NCBI RefSeq assembly: GCF_026427595.1 | Contig: NZ_CP101527.1 | Coordinates: 753,001 to 817,000 of the forward strand | Source of the DNA: Alkalimarinus sediminis | GTDB taxonomy: Bacteria; Pseudomonadota; Gammaproteobacteria; Pseudomonadales; Oleiphilaceae | Length of the DNA stretch: 64,000 nt | Direction of reading: 5' to 3' | In this document: positions 16,334 to 61,036 of the stretch, in pieces | Layout: each line of letters starts with the position of its first letter | Position numbering within the stretch: the first letter of the stretch is position 1 | Made by a program: the position numbers and the translations under genes | Notes under the pieces: model-generated | The model's database searches: none | The model's input: the letters and a program-made list of their open reading frames with translations, nothing else | Told to the model about the DNA's origin: nothing

Positions 16334-17023
16334 TTATGGCAAGCGAATACGGAATACACCACCACCTAAATCGCCGCCATTTTCTAGCTCTATACTGCCT
16401 GTTTCATCACCTTGTTTATGGAGCTTTGCGACTTGATAGGCAAAATAGAGCCCAAGGCTTGTACTGCCAGACTCGAAATCAATCCCCTTAAATATCTGTC
16501 CCGGTGCGTTGCACATTGAAGCTGGGTAGCCTGCGCCATTATCTGAAATCTCAAACACCGTATGGCGACCATCGTGATAAGCCTTTAGCTTTATTTTGTC
16601 CCGCGTATAGCGAGCCGCATTGGTTAATGTATTGTTGATAATACCTGCGGTCATGTCACGATCAAAATATCCCACCAGGTCATCTTCACACTCTATAATC
16701 AATGATATAGAGCGAGAGTTAAGTAGGACTTCATAGCGGGCGGCTTGCTCCTCAAGAAAGTCGCGGATGTAATGTTCGTCTATGTGTACAGAGAGTTTGT
16801 CGTTCTCCAGTCGATAAACCCCGAGAAGCTGGATAAGGTCGTTATTGACCCGTTCAGCTTCGTATTGAAGCGTGGCTACTTTGCCTGATTTTTTCATCTC
16901 TTCAGGAAGCTCATCGCTAATCAGCTCCAACGAATGCAGCAGCATACTGAGGGAGTTCTTCATATCATGTACCGATGATGCCATAACCATTGAAAAATCG
17001 GGTTTTGATGGATCTTCAGTCAT
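16334..17023 (-). CDS. Small soluble histidine kinase without sensor domain
   Basis: 229 residues from ATG 17023 (AAGGAAGG 4-7 nt upstream; the frame is open further but that start has no site). The H-box SSVHDMKNSLSMLLHSLE begins only about 17 residues into the protein, so there is no sensor domain. The ATPase domain has N-box INNTLTNAARYTRD, G1 ISDNGAGYP and a G2-like STSLGLYF. It is an orphan-type kinase that must receive its input from a partner. It lies 79 nt downstream of a REC-TPR gene and near a membrane-anchored REC gene on the same strand, and these three probably form one system. Confidence 0.85.
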   Translation of the reverse strand: MTEDPSKPDFSMVMASSVHDMKNSLSMLLHSLELISDELPEEMKKSGKVATLQYEAERVNNDLIQLLGVYRLENDKLSVHIDEHYIRDFLEEQAARYEVLLNSRSISLIIECEDDLVGYFDRDMTAGIINNTLTNAARYTRDKIKLKAYHDGRHTVFEISDNGAGYPASMCNAPGQIFKGIDFESGSTSLGLYFAYQVAKLHKQGDETGSIELENGGDLGGGVFRIRLP

Positions 17024-17101
17024 TGTGCCTTCCTTTATCATCAAAAATTTTCAGTTGTAATTATTCGTATAACACCGTAGCTGCATAAGTCGGTGCGATA
17101 G

Positions 17102-18754
17102 CTAGCCTGTTTTAAGAGAGTTAGCGAGTGAGTCTACTTTTTTGGCAAGGCTAGTTAAGCGTTTGTATTGCCTGTGTTGACTCGGTATGTGCTTAACGTT
17201 ATTCAGGTACTGATTTAAACCCTCAACCTCTTCACGTTCAGGTGTTGTGTTTTCAAATGATTTTAAAACTACCTGAACCAAGTTCAAGTTAAGCGCTGGG
17301 TGTTTAGGGGCTTCTTTAAGTGCGTCTTTAAACGTATCAATTGCTTTGGTTAAAAACCCCTCTTCGAAGTAAGAAATACCTTGTTTGTTAAGCTCACGAG
17401 CTTTCATTTTCTGGCGTAAACTGACCGGTTCATCAAGTAACTCTTCGATACTGCTGAGAATATCTGGGTCGTCTTCGAATCGTTGTGCTAATGAGTGTAG
17501 CACTCGCTCCGCTCGATCAGTCTTATCTAGGCGATAAAGTGTTTTGGCAAATTCGATGCCTGTGGATGCATCAATGCTAGATTCATCAATGAGCGACTCA
17601 GCAACAGCAAATGCGGCTTTTGCCGCGTTTTCATCGTTTTGGTTCTGGTGTACTCTAGTCTCAATCAAGCTAGCGCTTGCTCTCACATCGTTACGATTAT
17701 ACTTTTTGGTCGCCTTATCGAGTGTGTTTATCGCTTCTTCAGCATACTCTTTTGCCTTTTCAGGCTCACTGCCTTCGCAGCCATCTGATAGGCTCCGTCC
17801 TAAGTTTAAATAGTTATCCGCTGAATCATGTACCGAGTGGTTGGCATATTTAACCGTTGCTTTATAGGCTGAGATCGCCCCCTCAAGATCCTGATTCATC
17901 GTGCATAGCTCACCCAGATGTTGCTGCCTAGGGACTGCTAATGGTGAAATCGATGTGGCTTGTTTGAGAATGATCTGAGCCTCTTTACGCTTGCCGGTTT
18001 TTTCATAAGCTTCAGAAAGGTAGTCGTAGGCCTCGACGTAGTCTTTATTATTATTGATGAGTGTTTTAAATTGTTCGATAGCCTCTGAGTATTGTTGCTG
18101 CGCCATCTGAACTTTTCCTAACCCTAGTCGAGCCCAAGCGATTTCGCGCTTACTCAATATATCCTCATATAGTTTCTGAGCATGCTGATAGTCACCGGTC
18201 AAGTAATAGAGGTGCGCCAGAGTTTTGTGACACCAACTTTTGTATCGACTGCCTTTGTTTATTTCTTGAGTACAGAGAGTAATGGCTTTGGGATAGTTCT
18301 CAAGATCAAGCTCTTTGTTGATCGGTAGTAGTGCTTGACGTTGTAAAATGAGCGCATCCATTCTTTTTTGCAGCACTGCTTTGGTGATGGGCTTAGCGAT
18401 GTATCCGTCTGGTTGGCACTCTTTGGTGCCAATTACCACTTCTTTAGAGGTTTCTGCGGTGACTAGAATAAATAGGCTGGTGCGCTTTAATCGCTTATGG
18501 AACCTTAGCTCCTCAAGAACCTGTTGGCCAGTTTGACCATCCCCCATATTATGGTCACAGAGTACAATGTCATATCGCTCGAAGGTGCATTTTTGCACGG
18601 CATCTTTACCATTGCCTGATACATCAATATGCTCCACTCCAAATGAACGAAGCATCTGCTTAACAGATATACGAAAGCTTTCGAAATCATCGACAATCAG
18701 GAATTTAAGCTTTTTGTAGGTTTTAGGTAGTGCTACCGTTTCTTTAATGTTCAC
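17102..18754 (-). CDS. Response regulator with C-terminal tetratricopeptide repeats (REC-TPR)
   Basis: 550 residues from a GTG start. REC domain about 15-135 with the acidic pair VDDFE, phospho-acceptor Asp67 in LCDHNMGDGQTG and the conserved Lys in YIAKPIT. The rest (about 150-545) is helical, with recognisable TPR units. Examples are KTLAHLYYLTGDYQHAQKLY, ARLGLGKVQMAQQQYSEAIE, YDYLSEAYEKTGKRKEAQII and the C-terminal NKQGISYFEEGFLTKAIDTF. TPRs bind proteins, so phosphorylation probably gates assembly with another protein rather than DNA binding. Related REC-TPR proteins occur in Pseudomonas, Shewanella and Vibrio. Upstream on the strand is the membrane-anchored REC gene, 54 nt away. Confidence 0.9.
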   Translation of the reverse strand: MNIKETVALPKTYKKLKFLIVDDFESFRISVKQMLRSFGVEHIDVSGNGKDAVQKCTFERYDIVLCDHNMGDGQTGQQVLEELRFHKRLKRTSLFILVTAETSKEVVIGTKECQPDGYIAKPITKAVLQKRMDALILQRQALLPINKELDLENYPKAITLCTQEINKGSRYKSWCHKTLAHLYYLTGDYQHAQKLYEDILSKREIAWARLGLGKVQMAQQQYSEAIEQFKTLINNNKDYVEAYDYLSEAYEKTGKRKEAQIILKQATSISPLAVPRQQHLGELCTMNQDLEGAISAYKATVKYANHSVHDSADNYLNLGRSLSDGCEGSEPEKAKEYAEEAINTLDKATKKYNRNDVRASASLIETRVHQNQNDENAAKAAFAVAESLIDESSIDASTGIEFAKTLYRLDKTDRAERVLHSLAQRFEDDPDILSSIEELLDEPVSLRQKMKARELNKQGISYFEEGFLTKAIDTFKDALKEAPKHPALNLNLVQVVLKSFENTTPEREEVEGLNQYLNNVKHIPSQHRQYKRLTSLAKKVDSLANSLKTG

Positions 18755-57306: not shown

Positions 57307-58251
57307 ATGAAAGAGTCTCTATCAGCTGAGAGTTTACTTCAGCGCTTAATCGAGAAGCCCCCTGCTATAAGGGCGGGTGGTGAGTCTATTGTGGAGTGGT
57401 ATCATCAGCTTAGGCTTAATAGTGACCTCTCTGTATCAGATGATCTTGATGCGCTGACAGGTGGCTTCTATGCCAATAGTGTAGGCCAGGCGTTTGTTTA
57501 TGGCTACGAAGTGGCAATCCAGCGTCTAACGGGGCTGGATACGAAAGAGCAGTTAGCTGCTTTTTGTGTTACCGAAAATAAAAGTACTCATCCGCAATCT
57601 ATGCAAGTCTCATTGATAGAAGAGGGTGATAAGCTGCTATTAAGTGGAAAAAAGGACTTTGTAACACTGGCTAGCGACACCAAATGGTTGCTGGTTGCGG
57701 CAAAGTTTGGGATTTTGGACTCTGGCCGTAATCAAATAAAGTTGATAAAAGTTGATGCTTCTCTGCCGGGAGTAAATATTAAAATACTGCCACCATTGCC
57801 ATTTATTCCCGAAGTGGGACATGGTGTTGTAACGTTTGACTCCGTATCGATTGATCAACGTGATCTTTTTTTAGGCGATGGTTACGGTGATTATGTTAAG
57901 CTGTTTCGTTGGATTGAAGATATTAATGTGTTTATTTCTCTGTCTGGGTATTTGCTAAAAATAGCGCTAGTTTATCAGTGGCCTTTAGCATCAAGAGTAG
58001 AGATTATTTCAATATTGACATCGCTGCTAGGGATGCTGTCAGCGGGGGCGAATGAACCTATCGCTCATATAGCTTTTTATGACCAAGTCGCTCGGCTAGA
58101 GCGTTGGCTTGAACAGTATGATGATGCCTGGCAATCAGTAGATGTGGCAGTATCAGCAGCTTGGAAAAGAGATCGAGGGCTGTTAAAAATTGCTAGCTAC
58201 GCTCGGTCGGCCAGGTATAAAAAGGCGCTGAGTCGTTTGGCGCTTGTGTAA
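57307..58251 (+). CDS. Acyl-CoA dehydrogenase-like protein, no catalytic residue
   Basis: 314 residues, AAGGTG upstream of the ATG. Middle sequence AFCVTENKSTHPQSMQVSLI and LLLSGKKDFVTLASDTKWLL resembles the acyl-CoA dehydrogenase FAD-loop and beta-domain patterns (xxTExEAGSD and xxNGxKxFIT). The start and end are shorter than in active enzymes and the EGT motif is absent. C-terminal half is helical with basic residues (KRDRGLLKIASYARSARYKK). It is probably a non-enzymatic relative; function unknown. Flanked by unrelated genes. Confidence 0.65.
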   Translation: MKESLSAESLLQRLIEKPPAIRAGGESIVEWYHQLRLNSDLSVSDDLDALTGGFYANSVGQAFVYGYEVAIQRLTGLDTKEQLAAFCVTENKSTHPQSMQVSLIEEGDKLLLSGKKDFVTLASDTKWLLVAAKFGILDSGRNQIKLIKVDASLPGVNIKILPPLPFIPEVGHGVVTFDSVSIDQRDLFLGDGYGDYVKLFRWIEDINVFISLSGYLLKIALVYQWPLASRVEIISILTSLLGMLSAGANEPIAHIAFYDQVARLERWLEQYDDAWQSVDVAVSAAWKRDRGLLKIASYARSARYKKALSRLALV

Positions 58252-58370: not shown

Positions 58371-59102
58371 TTACTGCACTGCTAATCCTACCTCCAACGC
58401 TTCAAACCAATCTAGAAACTTACCTACGTTTTCACCGCGGAAGATTCTACCGTGTTGCGGCACCATCATTTCTATATCCAGTTTTCTAACCCTGCGTATC
58501 CAGTCTTGTTTGGCGCGGTTAGAGGGCATCCAACGTTGATGAAATAGCTGCATTTTATCAATTTGGTCGTTAAAATTTTCTATCTCAAAAGGTGCTTCTG
58601 GCGGCTCGAGCGCAGCGCCTATATCTCCTGAGAAGAGAATTTTGGCGACAGGGTCGTAGACATTAAAATTGCCAGAGGAGTGCAGGTAGTGGGCCGGGAT
58701 CAGTTGTAGATCGATATTACCTACTCGAATGGTTTCTCCTTGATCTCGTATAGGCGCATATTCGATATTATTCATGCCGAAGTGTCGAACGAACCCTTCC
58801 CACAGCCACGGACAGTGGAGTTTTGCATTGGGTAAAACCTGATCCCAAAGACCGAGAGAAGATATGATGTCTGGGTCTTGGTGTGAGGCAAAGAGGTGAG
58901 TGATGTTCTCAATGGGGACATATTTAAGTGTAGCAGCAAGCATAGGTGCAAATAGTTCGATTCCACCTGGATCTAGCAGAATAGATTGGTCGCCCGAGGT
59001 GATGAGAAACTGGTTAGTATCAATGATTTTTTCGGGCTTCCCCGGGTCTCGGCCAAACATTATCCAGCGGTGGTTTTCATTGTAGAGCGTTGTTGCCTGC
59101 AT
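58371..59102 (-). CDS. MBL-fold oxygen-binding di-iron domain protein (ODP)
   Basis: 243 residues. Metallo-beta-lactamase fold of the flavo-di-iron type: LLDPGGIELFAPML, metal motif SHQDPDI (His74, Asp76, Asp78), then AHYLHSSGNF (His138 or 141), FSGDIG (Asp160) and VPQHGRIF (His about 218). This is the ODP group, in which a di-iron site binds oxygen; the Treponema denticola homologue serves chemotaxis. No flavodoxin domain or membrane segment. It lies 25 nt downstream of a chemoreceptor-like gene on the same strand, making a two-gene unit. Confidence 0.85.
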   Translation of the reverse strand: MQATTLYNENHRWIMFGRDPGKPEKIIDTNQFLITSGDQSILLDPGGIELFAPMLAATLKYVPIENITHLFASHQDPDIISSLGLWDQVLPNAKLHCPWLWEGFVRHFGMNNIEYAPIRDQGETIRVGNIDLQLIPAHYLHSSGNFNVYDPVAKILFSGDIGAALEPPEAPFEIENFNDQIDKMQLFHQRWMPSNRAKQDWIRRVRKLDIEMMVPQHGRIFRGENVGKFLDWFEALEVGLAVQ

Positions 59103-59127
59103 GATGTTCTATTCTCTTTCTATGCTG

Positions 59128-59730
59128 TTATTTTTGATTTCCCAATAATGAAATTGAGTGAGATACGTGCTCTTTTATCTTGTTGGCCATTACCTGAATG
59201 CCGTCAGCCATTTCAACTAAATGCCCCTGAAACTCACCGGTTCTAACGGCTTCTAGCTTTGAGGTGACGGCGATTACATCAATTGCTCGCATGTGCTGTT
59301 GTATTTCACCAAGCTTGTTGCGTAACTCGCTCATTAGCTGACCAAAACGGTAGTCTAGTAACTTCTGCTTTTCATTGATTTCTGTGATAAAAAATACGAT
59401 GTCGTTTTGGTGTGTTGCACTTTCTGCCTGGTCGTAAGCAAGCTTGAGGTTGGTTAATACAGAGCTATTGCGCCACTCAACGACAGAGTGGGTCGATATT
59501 TCAAGTGCTGTTATGTTGATTGACTTCGCCAGCGTAATGGTTTCATTGGCTAACTCATCATAGAAGTTAGCAATGACCGCAAGCCCGGCTGCTTGACTAC
59601 CCGCTCTCAAGACGATTGCTCTTGCATTCTTCGACGAAATAGCAAGTTGCCGAGCGACTTGCTGAGCCTGATGAAGCTCTGACGCAATTTGAGCTGCCGC
59701 CACCGTTTGATTGGCGTGATTATCTGACAT
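59128..59730 (-). CDS. Chemoreceptor-like helical protein with two MCP-type signatures
   Basis: 200 residues, all helical, no membrane segment; AAGGTC upstream of the ATG. Residues 35-71 (NARAIVLRAGSQAAGLAVIA and ELANETITLAKSI) match the conserved C-terminal part of the methyl-accepting chemotaxis hairpin (NAAxEAARAGExGRGFAVVA). Residues 150-185 (IDVIAVTSKLEAVRTGEFQG and EMADGIQVMANKI) match again, with about one heptad missing at the tip. There is no ligand-binding domain. It probably forms a four-helix bundle of MCP kind. With the ODP protein encoded next to it, it looks like a chemoreceptor-type partner for an oxygen-sensing module. Confidence 0.65.
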   Translation of the reverse strand: MSDNHANQTVAAAQIASELHQAQQVARQLAISSKNARAIVLRAGSQAAGLAVIANFYDELANETITLAKSINITALEISTHSVVEWRNSSVLTNLKLAYDQAESATHQNDIVFFITEINEKQKLLDYRFGQLMSELRNKLGEIQQHMRAIDVIAVTSKLEAVRTGEFQGHLVEMADGIQVMANKIKEHVSHSISLLGNQK

Positions 59731-60085: not shown

Positions 60086-61036
60086 ATGTTAAAAAGAATA
60101 TTGCAGTTAGCGCTTGTTGCCTTCATTGGGGCTTCTCAAACAGGGTGTTTGTACATGGCATTTGAGAAGCATGGTGGTGCTTTCTTGGTGCGGGTTACAG
60201 GCGAACAGTTCGTTCATATTCCCAATGACCAGTGGGACTCGTCCAATAATGCATTGGTTTATTTTTATCGACCAGATAGCCGTTGGGCGTCTGAAGAGAT
60301 TGATGCGCCCAGTGTTTTTATTGATGATCACCGCTATGTAAGCCTTCGAGCTAACGGATTTACATGGTTAGAGATGGCTCCGGGTCCTAAGCAGATAACA
60401 ATGAGAAGGCCTATCGGTTTATTGTTGGGCTTTGAGGGTCTTGGTAGTTTTTCTTTAAGTAAAATTGTCGATGCTGAGTTTAATTTAGAAGCCGGTAAAG
60501 TCTATTACTTCAGATATTCTGAAATTGAAGCTCCTTCGCAACCAAACCCAGACCTAGACCCTGAAGATGCACTGGCACAAGGGGATATGCAGTTAGTTTC
60601 TCGAGAGGTGGCGATTCAAGAGATTGTCAAAACTCGTTTTCTTGAAAATGAGCCCCCTTTTGCTAAAAACTCAGCTGGCACATCGATTGTAGAGCAGAAC
60701 AAAGAAGACGCTTATGAAAAAGAGAAAGCCAGACTTGAAGCAGCGCACGAAGAGGAGCTAGCGCAACTTAAACTTGATGGGCACTGGAAGAGCACTAAAT
60801 GGTACTGGCCGTTTGGTGGAGGTCCTACCAAGCGCACTGAAGCGGATATTCAGCTTCAGGAGCTAGAAAAGGAGCGAGAAGAGTATCTAGTGGCTTTAGC
60901 TGAAAAGGAAGAAAAAGCTAAAAAACCACGATGGTGGTGGCCTTTTGGCAATAAACAACAAGATGATCAAGCGCAACTGAAGAGAGAGTCAGAAGAGCAG
61001 GTTCAGGTTGTGTCTGCCGTTGGATACAGCCAATAG
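60086..61036 (+). CDS. DUF2846-like lipoprotein with two Trp-rich motifs
   Basis: 316 residues. Signal peptide (about 1-20) with lipobox TGC (residues 19-21), so lipidated and probably at the outer membrane. A DUF2846-like region follows (about 50-170: ALVYFYRPDSRWASEEIDAP, VSLRANGFTWLEMAPG, LEAGKVYYFRYSEI). Then two unusual repeats: KSTKWYWPFGG (about 234-244) and KKPRWWWPFGNK (about 282-293), separated by a Glu/Lys-rich helix. The motif WPFG may anchor the chain in a membrane or another protein. The function of DUF2846 is unknown. Confidence 0.75.
   Translation: MLKRILQLALVAFIGASQTGCLYMAFEKHGGAFLVRVTGEQFVHIPNDQWDSSNNALVYFYRPDSRWASEEIDAPSVFIDDHRYVSLRANGFTWLEMAPGPKQITMRRPIGLLLGFEGLGSFSLSKIVDAEFNLEAGKVYYFRYSEIEAPSQPNPDLDPEDALAQGDMQLVSREVAIQEIVKTRFLENEPPFAKNSAGTSIVEQNKEDAYEKEKARLEAAHEEELAQLKLDGHWKSTKWYWPFGGGPTKRTEADIQLQELEKEREEYLVALAEKEEKAKKPRWWWPFGNKQQDDQAQLKRESEEQVQVVSAVGYSQ

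Follow-up and report, generated by a model that had tools for sequence, protein, structure and literature searches.

In Treponema denticola, the oxygen-binding di-iron protein (ODP) has been described as an oxygen sensor coupled to TDE2496, a homolog of the methyl-accepting chemotaxis proteins (MCPs) that lacks transmembrane and sensor regions and can modulate CheA (PMC7666581). The coupling of ODPs to MCPs is already known from published operons (PMC7319448). Soluble single-chain MCP signalling domains, of unknown function, were noted in R. centenum and in a handful of other organisms, and an engineered single-chain Tsr was reported to signal (PMC4692393). DosM also carries two signalling domains in one chain, forming an elongated rod that has a tip at either end and bridges two baseplates (PMC7534058). 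CheO of C. jejuni has been described as an oxygen-responsive chemotaxis protein as well (PMC9665402).

The locus analysed here, from Alkalimarinus sediminis, resembles the T. denticola pair of ODP (TDE2498) and TDE2496 in that an ODP is genetically coupled to a presumably soluble MCP relative (PMC7666581, PMC7319448, PMC6978683). Unlike TDE2496, as far as its description goes, the partner is a single chain of about 200 residues with two degenerate tips, encoded directly upstream of the ODP gene; moreover, this pair is found in Gammaproteobacteria and some Alphaproteobacteria, and about 75 of 85 partners fall under the Pfam MCP cut-off. With the natural and engineered single-chain MCP domains it has in common that two receptor signalling halves are joined in one chain, but it differs from them, as they are described, in its tip-only size, the lack of an adaptation region, the separation of the E385 and R388 equivalents into different halves, and the ODP gene partner (PMC4692393). 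Whereas the tips of DosM are at opposite ends, those of the small protein would share one end of a compact bundle (PMC7534058). Aer2-like receptors represent the F7-cluster class, which the CheD cluster accompanying the pair resembles in gene order; in Aer2 the PAS and HAMP domains are in one chain, while in the present pair sensing is likely left to a separate di-iron protein (PMC7184735). In those parts of the open-licence literature that were available, no description was found of the short double-tip family or of its constant pairing with an ODP.

The gene pair and its distribution

The window, i.e., the whole stretch of 64,000 nucleotides that was analysed, carries two ORFs of 200 and 243 aa on its minus strand, the small-protein gene first and the ODP gene 25 nt downstream, with the coordinates given in the first-pass annotation. 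The following features were assigned:

59128..59730 (stop included), minus strand: double-tip MCP-derived protein, 200 aa (ORF; MCP homology)
59515..59676, minus strand: MCP hairpin 1, residues about 19-72 (profile match to MCPs; tip residue counts)
59140..59313, minus strand: MCP hairpin 2, residues about 140-197 (match of the C-terminal half; comparison of the halves; residue counts)
59103..59127, minus strand: intergenic gap of 25 nt between the small gene and the ODP gene
58371..59102, minus strand: ODP-type MBL-fold protein, 243 aa (PF19583; solved relatives; ODP alignment)

The pair is flanked at window positions 57307-58251 by the gene of an acyl-CoA-dehydrogenase-like protein (314 aa), convergent with the ODP gene, in which the middle domain alone was matched, with 31.1 bits just under the Pfam cut-off of 33.3, and at 60086-61036 by the gene of a DUF2846 protein (85.6 bits), divergent from the small receptor gene.

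The downstream gene encodes a true ODP, as had been proposed. Its product matched PF19583 with 251.2 bits (cut-off 27.2) over positions 1-194 of the 194 in the profile, and just two solved relatives were found within the E 0.001 limit, 6qrq (E 1.3e-64) and 6qnm (E 5.3e-52), both deposited as oxygen-binding di-iron proteins. The motifs HQDPD, AHxxHS, SGD and PQHG align with 6qrq, and across eight aligned ODPs HQDPD (74-78), H138, H141, D160 and H217, belonging to the HQDPD, AHxxH, SGD and PQHG motifs, are invariant; these conserved residues are taken here to be the metal ligands. By analogy with characterized ODPs, the protein probably senses O2 or Fe. A second ODP, 39% identical to that of the window, is encoded elsewhere in the same genome (L034:6395-7186, contig C1 near 4.222 Mb), with no small-protein neighbour at its locus.

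The distribution of the small protein was followed in scans of the order, the class and the phylum, and since at most 7-10 candidates were scored per genome and the neighbourhoods read in the class were those of the best 30 loci of 189 matches, the resulting counts are lower bounds. Matches at E 0.001 or better were obtained in 38 of the 293 genomes of the order, comprising 21 short frames (199-261 aa, E 2.6e-7 or better, that of the window included) and 17 longer MCP-like frames (331-1093 aa); an ODP gene adjoined all 21 short frames and none of the nine loci with longer ones. The 189 matches at E 0.001 in the 369 genomes of the class were mostly longer MCP-like frames. There, an ODP was adjacent to each of the 21 best-scoring frames besides the own one (210-321 aa, E 1.3e-11 or better) and absent beside the longer frames (0/8 loci). 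Among 398 genomes of the phylum, scanned with a cut-off of 1e-15, eight matches including the own genome were found, and the ODP stood beside five of five further short frames and neither of the two longer ones. The genome of A. sediminis has a single copy of the small protein.

Starting from the ODP, six exact peptides of the window protein, a choice that favours close relatives, led to 67 loci. Wherever the ODP was at least 48% identical, the small protein was encoded upstream (63/63 testable loci); at 40-41% identity it was missing from all three loci, two of which belong to Undibacterium. The neighbour relation expected in relatives was thus recovered from both sides, and the contrast between 63/63 and 0/3 rules out that the two genes were linked by chance. 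The closest ODP relative (97% identity) comes from an uncultured Oleiphilaceae bacterium, and the titles of the pair-bearing records include Reinekea, Thalassolituus, Bermanella, Hahella, Pseudoalteromonas, Colwellia, Cycloclasticus and Magnetospirillum.

In 106 loci, which include some contigs reached twice, the small gene always came first, and the two genes overlapped in 35 cases or were separated by 0-30 nt (53), 31-60 nt (13) or more than 60 nt (5). Across ten neighbourhoods, namely the window and nine loci from other genomes, nothing but the pair was common to all, and three other gene types recurred, each in two or three of the ten. Two different copies of the pair were observed in genome G274 (L033:5535-6921 and L035:6929-8357), the second of them about 2.3 kb from a CheV gene and less than 1 kb from an EAL-HDOD gene.

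Origin and asymmetry of the small protein

The small-protein family was assembled from 107 loci, some of which represent the same contig reached twice (e.g., L002 and L092), yielding 106 members (L141 is cut by the contig end) and 85 non-redundant ones at 90% identity, with lengths of 195-260 aa and a median of 205. Taken alone, the window protein matched the Pfam MCPsignal model (PF00015) weakly and under its cut-off (E 0.018; 15.3 bits against 34.6), so that the expected relation to MCPs emerged only with the family profile. This profile matched solved MCPs with an E of 1.8e-13 (3g6b), and its C-terminal half alone matched MCP tips with an E of 1.4e-7 (2ch7), ungapped through the turn. Two de novo helical designs (E 3.5e-6 and 5.2e-5) scored below the eight best MCP rows in the latter search, indicating some coiled-coil background there. 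When the N- and C-terminal halves were compared with each other by hhalign, a score of 36.6 over 64 ungapped columns was obtained, against a maximum of 27.4 for block-shuffled controls (n=59) and 14.8 for the reversed one.

Scanned singly against MCPsignal, 49 of the 85 members scored E 0.01 or better, and 10, Magnetospirillum proteins among them, scored 2.2e-8 or better, which is about the curated cut-off; with the C-terminal half alone, 10/85 were detected at E 0.01. Among ten members scored singly, L145, L150 and L132 passed the cut-off. Judged from its sequence, the small protein is two tandem MCP-type hairpin tips in one chain. The first-pass annotation had recognized this duplicated hairpin signature, and both halves indeed match solved MCPs, but the heptad that it considered missing at the second tip is unsupported, since the alignment of this half with MCP tips runs through the turn ungapped; what differs there is the residues, notably at the G395 and F396 equivalents. 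Likewise as annotated, the Pfam scan revealed no sensor domain; as no other domain was found in it either, the protein is likely soluble. In the NCBIfam scan no model scored above its cut-off.

Two divergent members, L081 and L082, are 12-13% identical to the window protein and adjoin ODPs of 49-50% identity; their second tip, GGESFQAVV, is nearer the usual MCP tip. Other short MCP-like frames were seen in the class scan, e.g., G517:C16 (229 aa) and G035:C32 (180 aa).

Residues of both tips were counted over the 85 non-redundant members. The positions are numbered here by what we take to be their Tsr equivalents, among which E385 and R388 are presumably trimer-contact residues. The E385 equivalent is Glu in none of the first tips and in 80 of the second ones (E160), whereas the R388 equivalent is Arg in 78 first tips (R42) and 20 second tips. 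Similarly, the N381 equivalent is Asn in all 85 first tips (N35) and in 28 second tips; Gly is kept at the G395 equivalent by 70 first and 3 second tips and Phe at that of F396 by 60 and 13, respectively, while G44 of tip 1 is present in 83 members. These differences indicate that each half retains a different part of the usual tip set, and across the family the E385 and R388 equivalents do not generally come together in the same half; in the window protein, tip 2 has both E160 and R163. E391 was considered as a third split residue and discarded, being acidic in 55/85 first and 53/85 second tips.

Positions 42 and 160 vary together: all 78 members with R42 have E160, as do both members with K42, and the five with Q42 (L074, L077, L078, L079 and L097) are the five with V160. 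This covariation suggests that tips 1 and 2 may be in contact within one chain, although the five Q42/V160 members look like one lineage and the change is perhaps a single event. Mean conservation is 2.16 and 1.83 in the tips and 1.15 elsewhere, a difference that 6 of 200 circular shifts attain when the unshifted one is counted. In MCPs the tip region holds the trimer contacts and the CheA/CheW determinants (PMC4692393).

The AlphaFold2 model of the small protein (85 sequences; pLDDT 93.3, pTM 0.83) has helices at residues 3-101, 105-162 and 165-197, and DSSP reported no helix break at tip 1. Foldseek superposed it on five single-chain four-helix designs (8d9p, 5vju, 6z0c_B, 6z0c_D and 8d9o) with rmsd values of 5.9-6.7 A over 201-208 columns and on three more single-chain designs at 8.8-9.0 A, the TM-scores of the designs being 0.44-0.51. 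A first model, built from 21 sequences, for the most part superposed less closely on these designs, and Foldseek gave no match at E 0.001 for either model. Since a straight 99-residue helix was judged unable to produce such superpositions, we infer that the small protein would fold as an up-down-up-down bundle whose two tips share one end, reproducing the tip of an MCP dimer in a single chain. If helix 3-101 turns at tip 1, the arms would measure about 33-58 residues. The methylation sites of MCPs lie farther from the tip, and the small protein contains neither methylation helices nor a full-length coiled-coil.

Chemosensory context of the pair

In nine neighbourhoods of 7.6-18 kb from other genomes, two of them from G274 and with a minority of their ORFs scanned for domains, no che operon was seen by eye around the pair. 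An MCP fragment (L036:54-560) is situated about 7 kb from the pair in the L036 neighbourhood. In G255, the pair shares its contig, at a distance of about 12 kb (L059:2312-5085 and 16806-18151), with a group comprising genes for an MCP and a CheW as well as receiver-domain-like ORFs, which by eye is possibly a type IV pilus chemosensory cluster.

A CheA dimerisation domain is encoded in 19 of the 21 genomes of the order that carry the pair and in 233 of the 293 background genomes, hence the generic presence of CheA was rejected as an informative marker; the two pair genomes with no match, G010 and G255, do possess genes for CheW and MCPs. Counted by eye, strong CheA matches (best E below 1e-18) were present in 19/21 pair genomes and about 71/272 others, which suggests a second CheA class, and because this threshold is arbitrary CheD was tested instead. 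CheD was found in 19/21 pair genomes compared to 77/272 genomes without the pair (Fisher, 1.9e-8). Stratification by family (11 pair-holding families, 76 genomes with the family listed) gave a P of 4.4e-5, which is conservative insofar as unlisted genomes could contribute only cases with neither the pair nor CheD, but indicative in that sister species are not independent. The two pair genomes without CheD, G010 and G052, are of the same genus.

The CheD cluster of A. sediminis (L056:9564-18264, contig C1 about 2.08-2.09 Mb) comprises genes for CheY (recognized by eye), CheA, CheW, CheR, CheD, CheB, a STAS protein and a SpoIIE phosphatase. It is close to the stage 1 F7 cluster as described, differing from it in its single CheW and in the lack of a receptor gene between this and CheR (PMC7184735), where the F7 label refers to gene order in the clusters read and not to phylogeny, and CheD is not exclusive to F7. 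In G004 a gene for a PAS-HAMP-MCP receptor is placed between CheW and CheR. The CheA of the CheD cluster is 51-57% identical to the CheAs of G004, G075 and G209, compared to 39-41% (best segment) with the CheA of its own flagellar region. Outside this cluster, the A. sediminis genome encodes a long MCP frame of 1089 aa (C1:2789714), which is its best MCPsignal match.

As every one of the 21 genomes of the order with the pair has further chemotaxis genes and CheD co-occurs with the pair, the latter looks like an accessory input, and its description as a stand-alone oxygen-sensing module is doubtful. Altogether, the MCP origin, the identity of the ODP and the conserved adjacency proposed by the first-pass annotation are retained, while the missing heptad and the stand-alone character are given up.

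Proposed function and alternatives

Given its homology to the ODP-MCP system of T. denticola, the pair is best read as an O2/Fe input to a CheA array, and this reading is based on homology and duplication, on the adjacency seen in every close relative that could be tested, on conservation focused at the tips and on co-occurrence. We consider it probable that the pair constitutes an ODP-gated input (O2/Fe) to a chemosensory array, acting by way of a non-methylatable single-chain receptor pseudo-dimer. The small protein would run up one helix to tip 1, down a second to a short turn, then up a third to tip 2 and down a fourth, and would represent a natural single-chain pseudo-dimer of MCP kinase-control tips devoid of transmembrane, HAMP, sensor and methylation regions. 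The ODP would bind Fe and O2 and may dock on this protein, altering the way in which its tip end engages CheA/CheW, and cytoplasmic O2 or Fe could thereby adjust the output of CheA. In Gammaproteobacteria the pair would likely act on the CheD-containing (F7-like) array, perhaps alongside the PAS-type receptor of that array. The promoter-like sites enriched upstream of the family (see below) and the superposition on four-helix designs also favour this reading. Weighing against it are the lack of a che operon around the pair in the neighbourhoods inspected, the absence of CheD (G010, G052) or of a CheA dimerisation-domain match (G010, G255) in single pair genomes, the degenerate first tips, the unbroken helix at tip 1, the low TM-scores and the lack of a convincing promoter-like site in the window.

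A more detailed joint reading is put forward tentatively. The two halves might divide the work of a receptor dimer, the first keeping the N381, R388, G390, G395 and F396 equivalents and the second that of E385. In the same tentative scheme, R42 and E160 might form the cross-contact that is normally made between two identical subunits, and this arrangement might fix which half faces the trimer axis and which one CheA/CheW. The ODP might then switch a single-chain receptor that serves as a non-adapting second oxygen input to (or a poison of) ancestral F7-type arrays, a proposal made with the same reserve.

Because the key trimer contacts are split between the halves, the main rival explanation is that of a decoy or anti-receptor, a rather unlikely one in our estimation, in which the degenerate double tip, unable to form productive trimers, would bind CheW, CheA-P5 or receptor dimers and so remove them from the arrays, and the ODP would switch it on or off depending on O2 or Fe. 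Besides the separation of the E385 and R388 equivalents, this explanation accommodates the L380 equivalent of the first tips, which is Lys in 51/85 members and Leu in 10/85, as well as the absence of methylation helices and the short length of the chain (195-260 aa). With E385 never Glu and L380 rarely Leu in the first tips, canonical trimer and CheW contacts may not form. A decoy would also agree with the report that in T. denticola CheA was more constrained when the ODP was deleted (PMC7666581). However, the strong conservation of N35, R42, G44 and E160 fits a defined docking role equally well.

It is improbable that the pair works outside chemotaxis, the ODP handling O2, NO or peroxide and the helical protein being a scaffold or the partner of another regulator. 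No che operon was seen around the pair, and the window ODP resembles the MBL half of flavodiiron proteins, matching flavorubredoxin NF008887 with an E of 8.9e-7 and 28.1 bits, far below its cut-off; nevertheless, the Pfam scan found no flavodoxin domain for electron supply, and the MCP-tip ancestry, the conservation of the tips and the co-occurrence of CheD speak against this alternative. Promoter-like sites bear on it in both directions. In the 200 bases upstream of the 85 members and of 258 control ORFs, FNR-like sites (1 mismatch or fewer), in line with a role outside chemotaxis, were found in 10/85 and 3/258 (P 8e-5), and sigma28-like sites (2 mismatches or fewer), which speak against it, in 16/85 and 12/258 (P 1.3e-4), with thresholds set after a first look at shuffles and related members that are not independent; decoy motifs were not enriched (4/85 and 9/258; 2/85 and 2/258). 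For the upstream region of the window protein, both an FNR and a sigma28 site were rejected, the best candidates having 2 mismatches each and the sigma28-like one overlapping the start.

Lastly, the small protein is very improbably just an ordinary cytoplasmic receptor like TDE2496 that has diverged and whose fused, specialised halves have no functional meaning, for although published ODP-MCP operons occur in two gene orders (PMC7319448) and about 10/85 members reach the Pfam MCP cut-off, a single chain of about 200 residues with two tips and an asymmetric loss of residues in 85 members contrasts with a one-tip homodimer.

Within a core complex, a receptor dimer places its two subunits differently, and the single-chain Tsr was engineered as a possible tool for handling the two subunits separately (PMC4692393). 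The double-tip family would be the natural version of this experiment, with 85 non-redundant examples and an asymmetric loss of residues. Since about 75 of these fall under the Pfam MCP cut-off, most members would be missed by chemoreceptor surveys based on cut-offs. The family also supplies a constant partner for ODPs of the window type and a candidate extra input for F7-type arrays.
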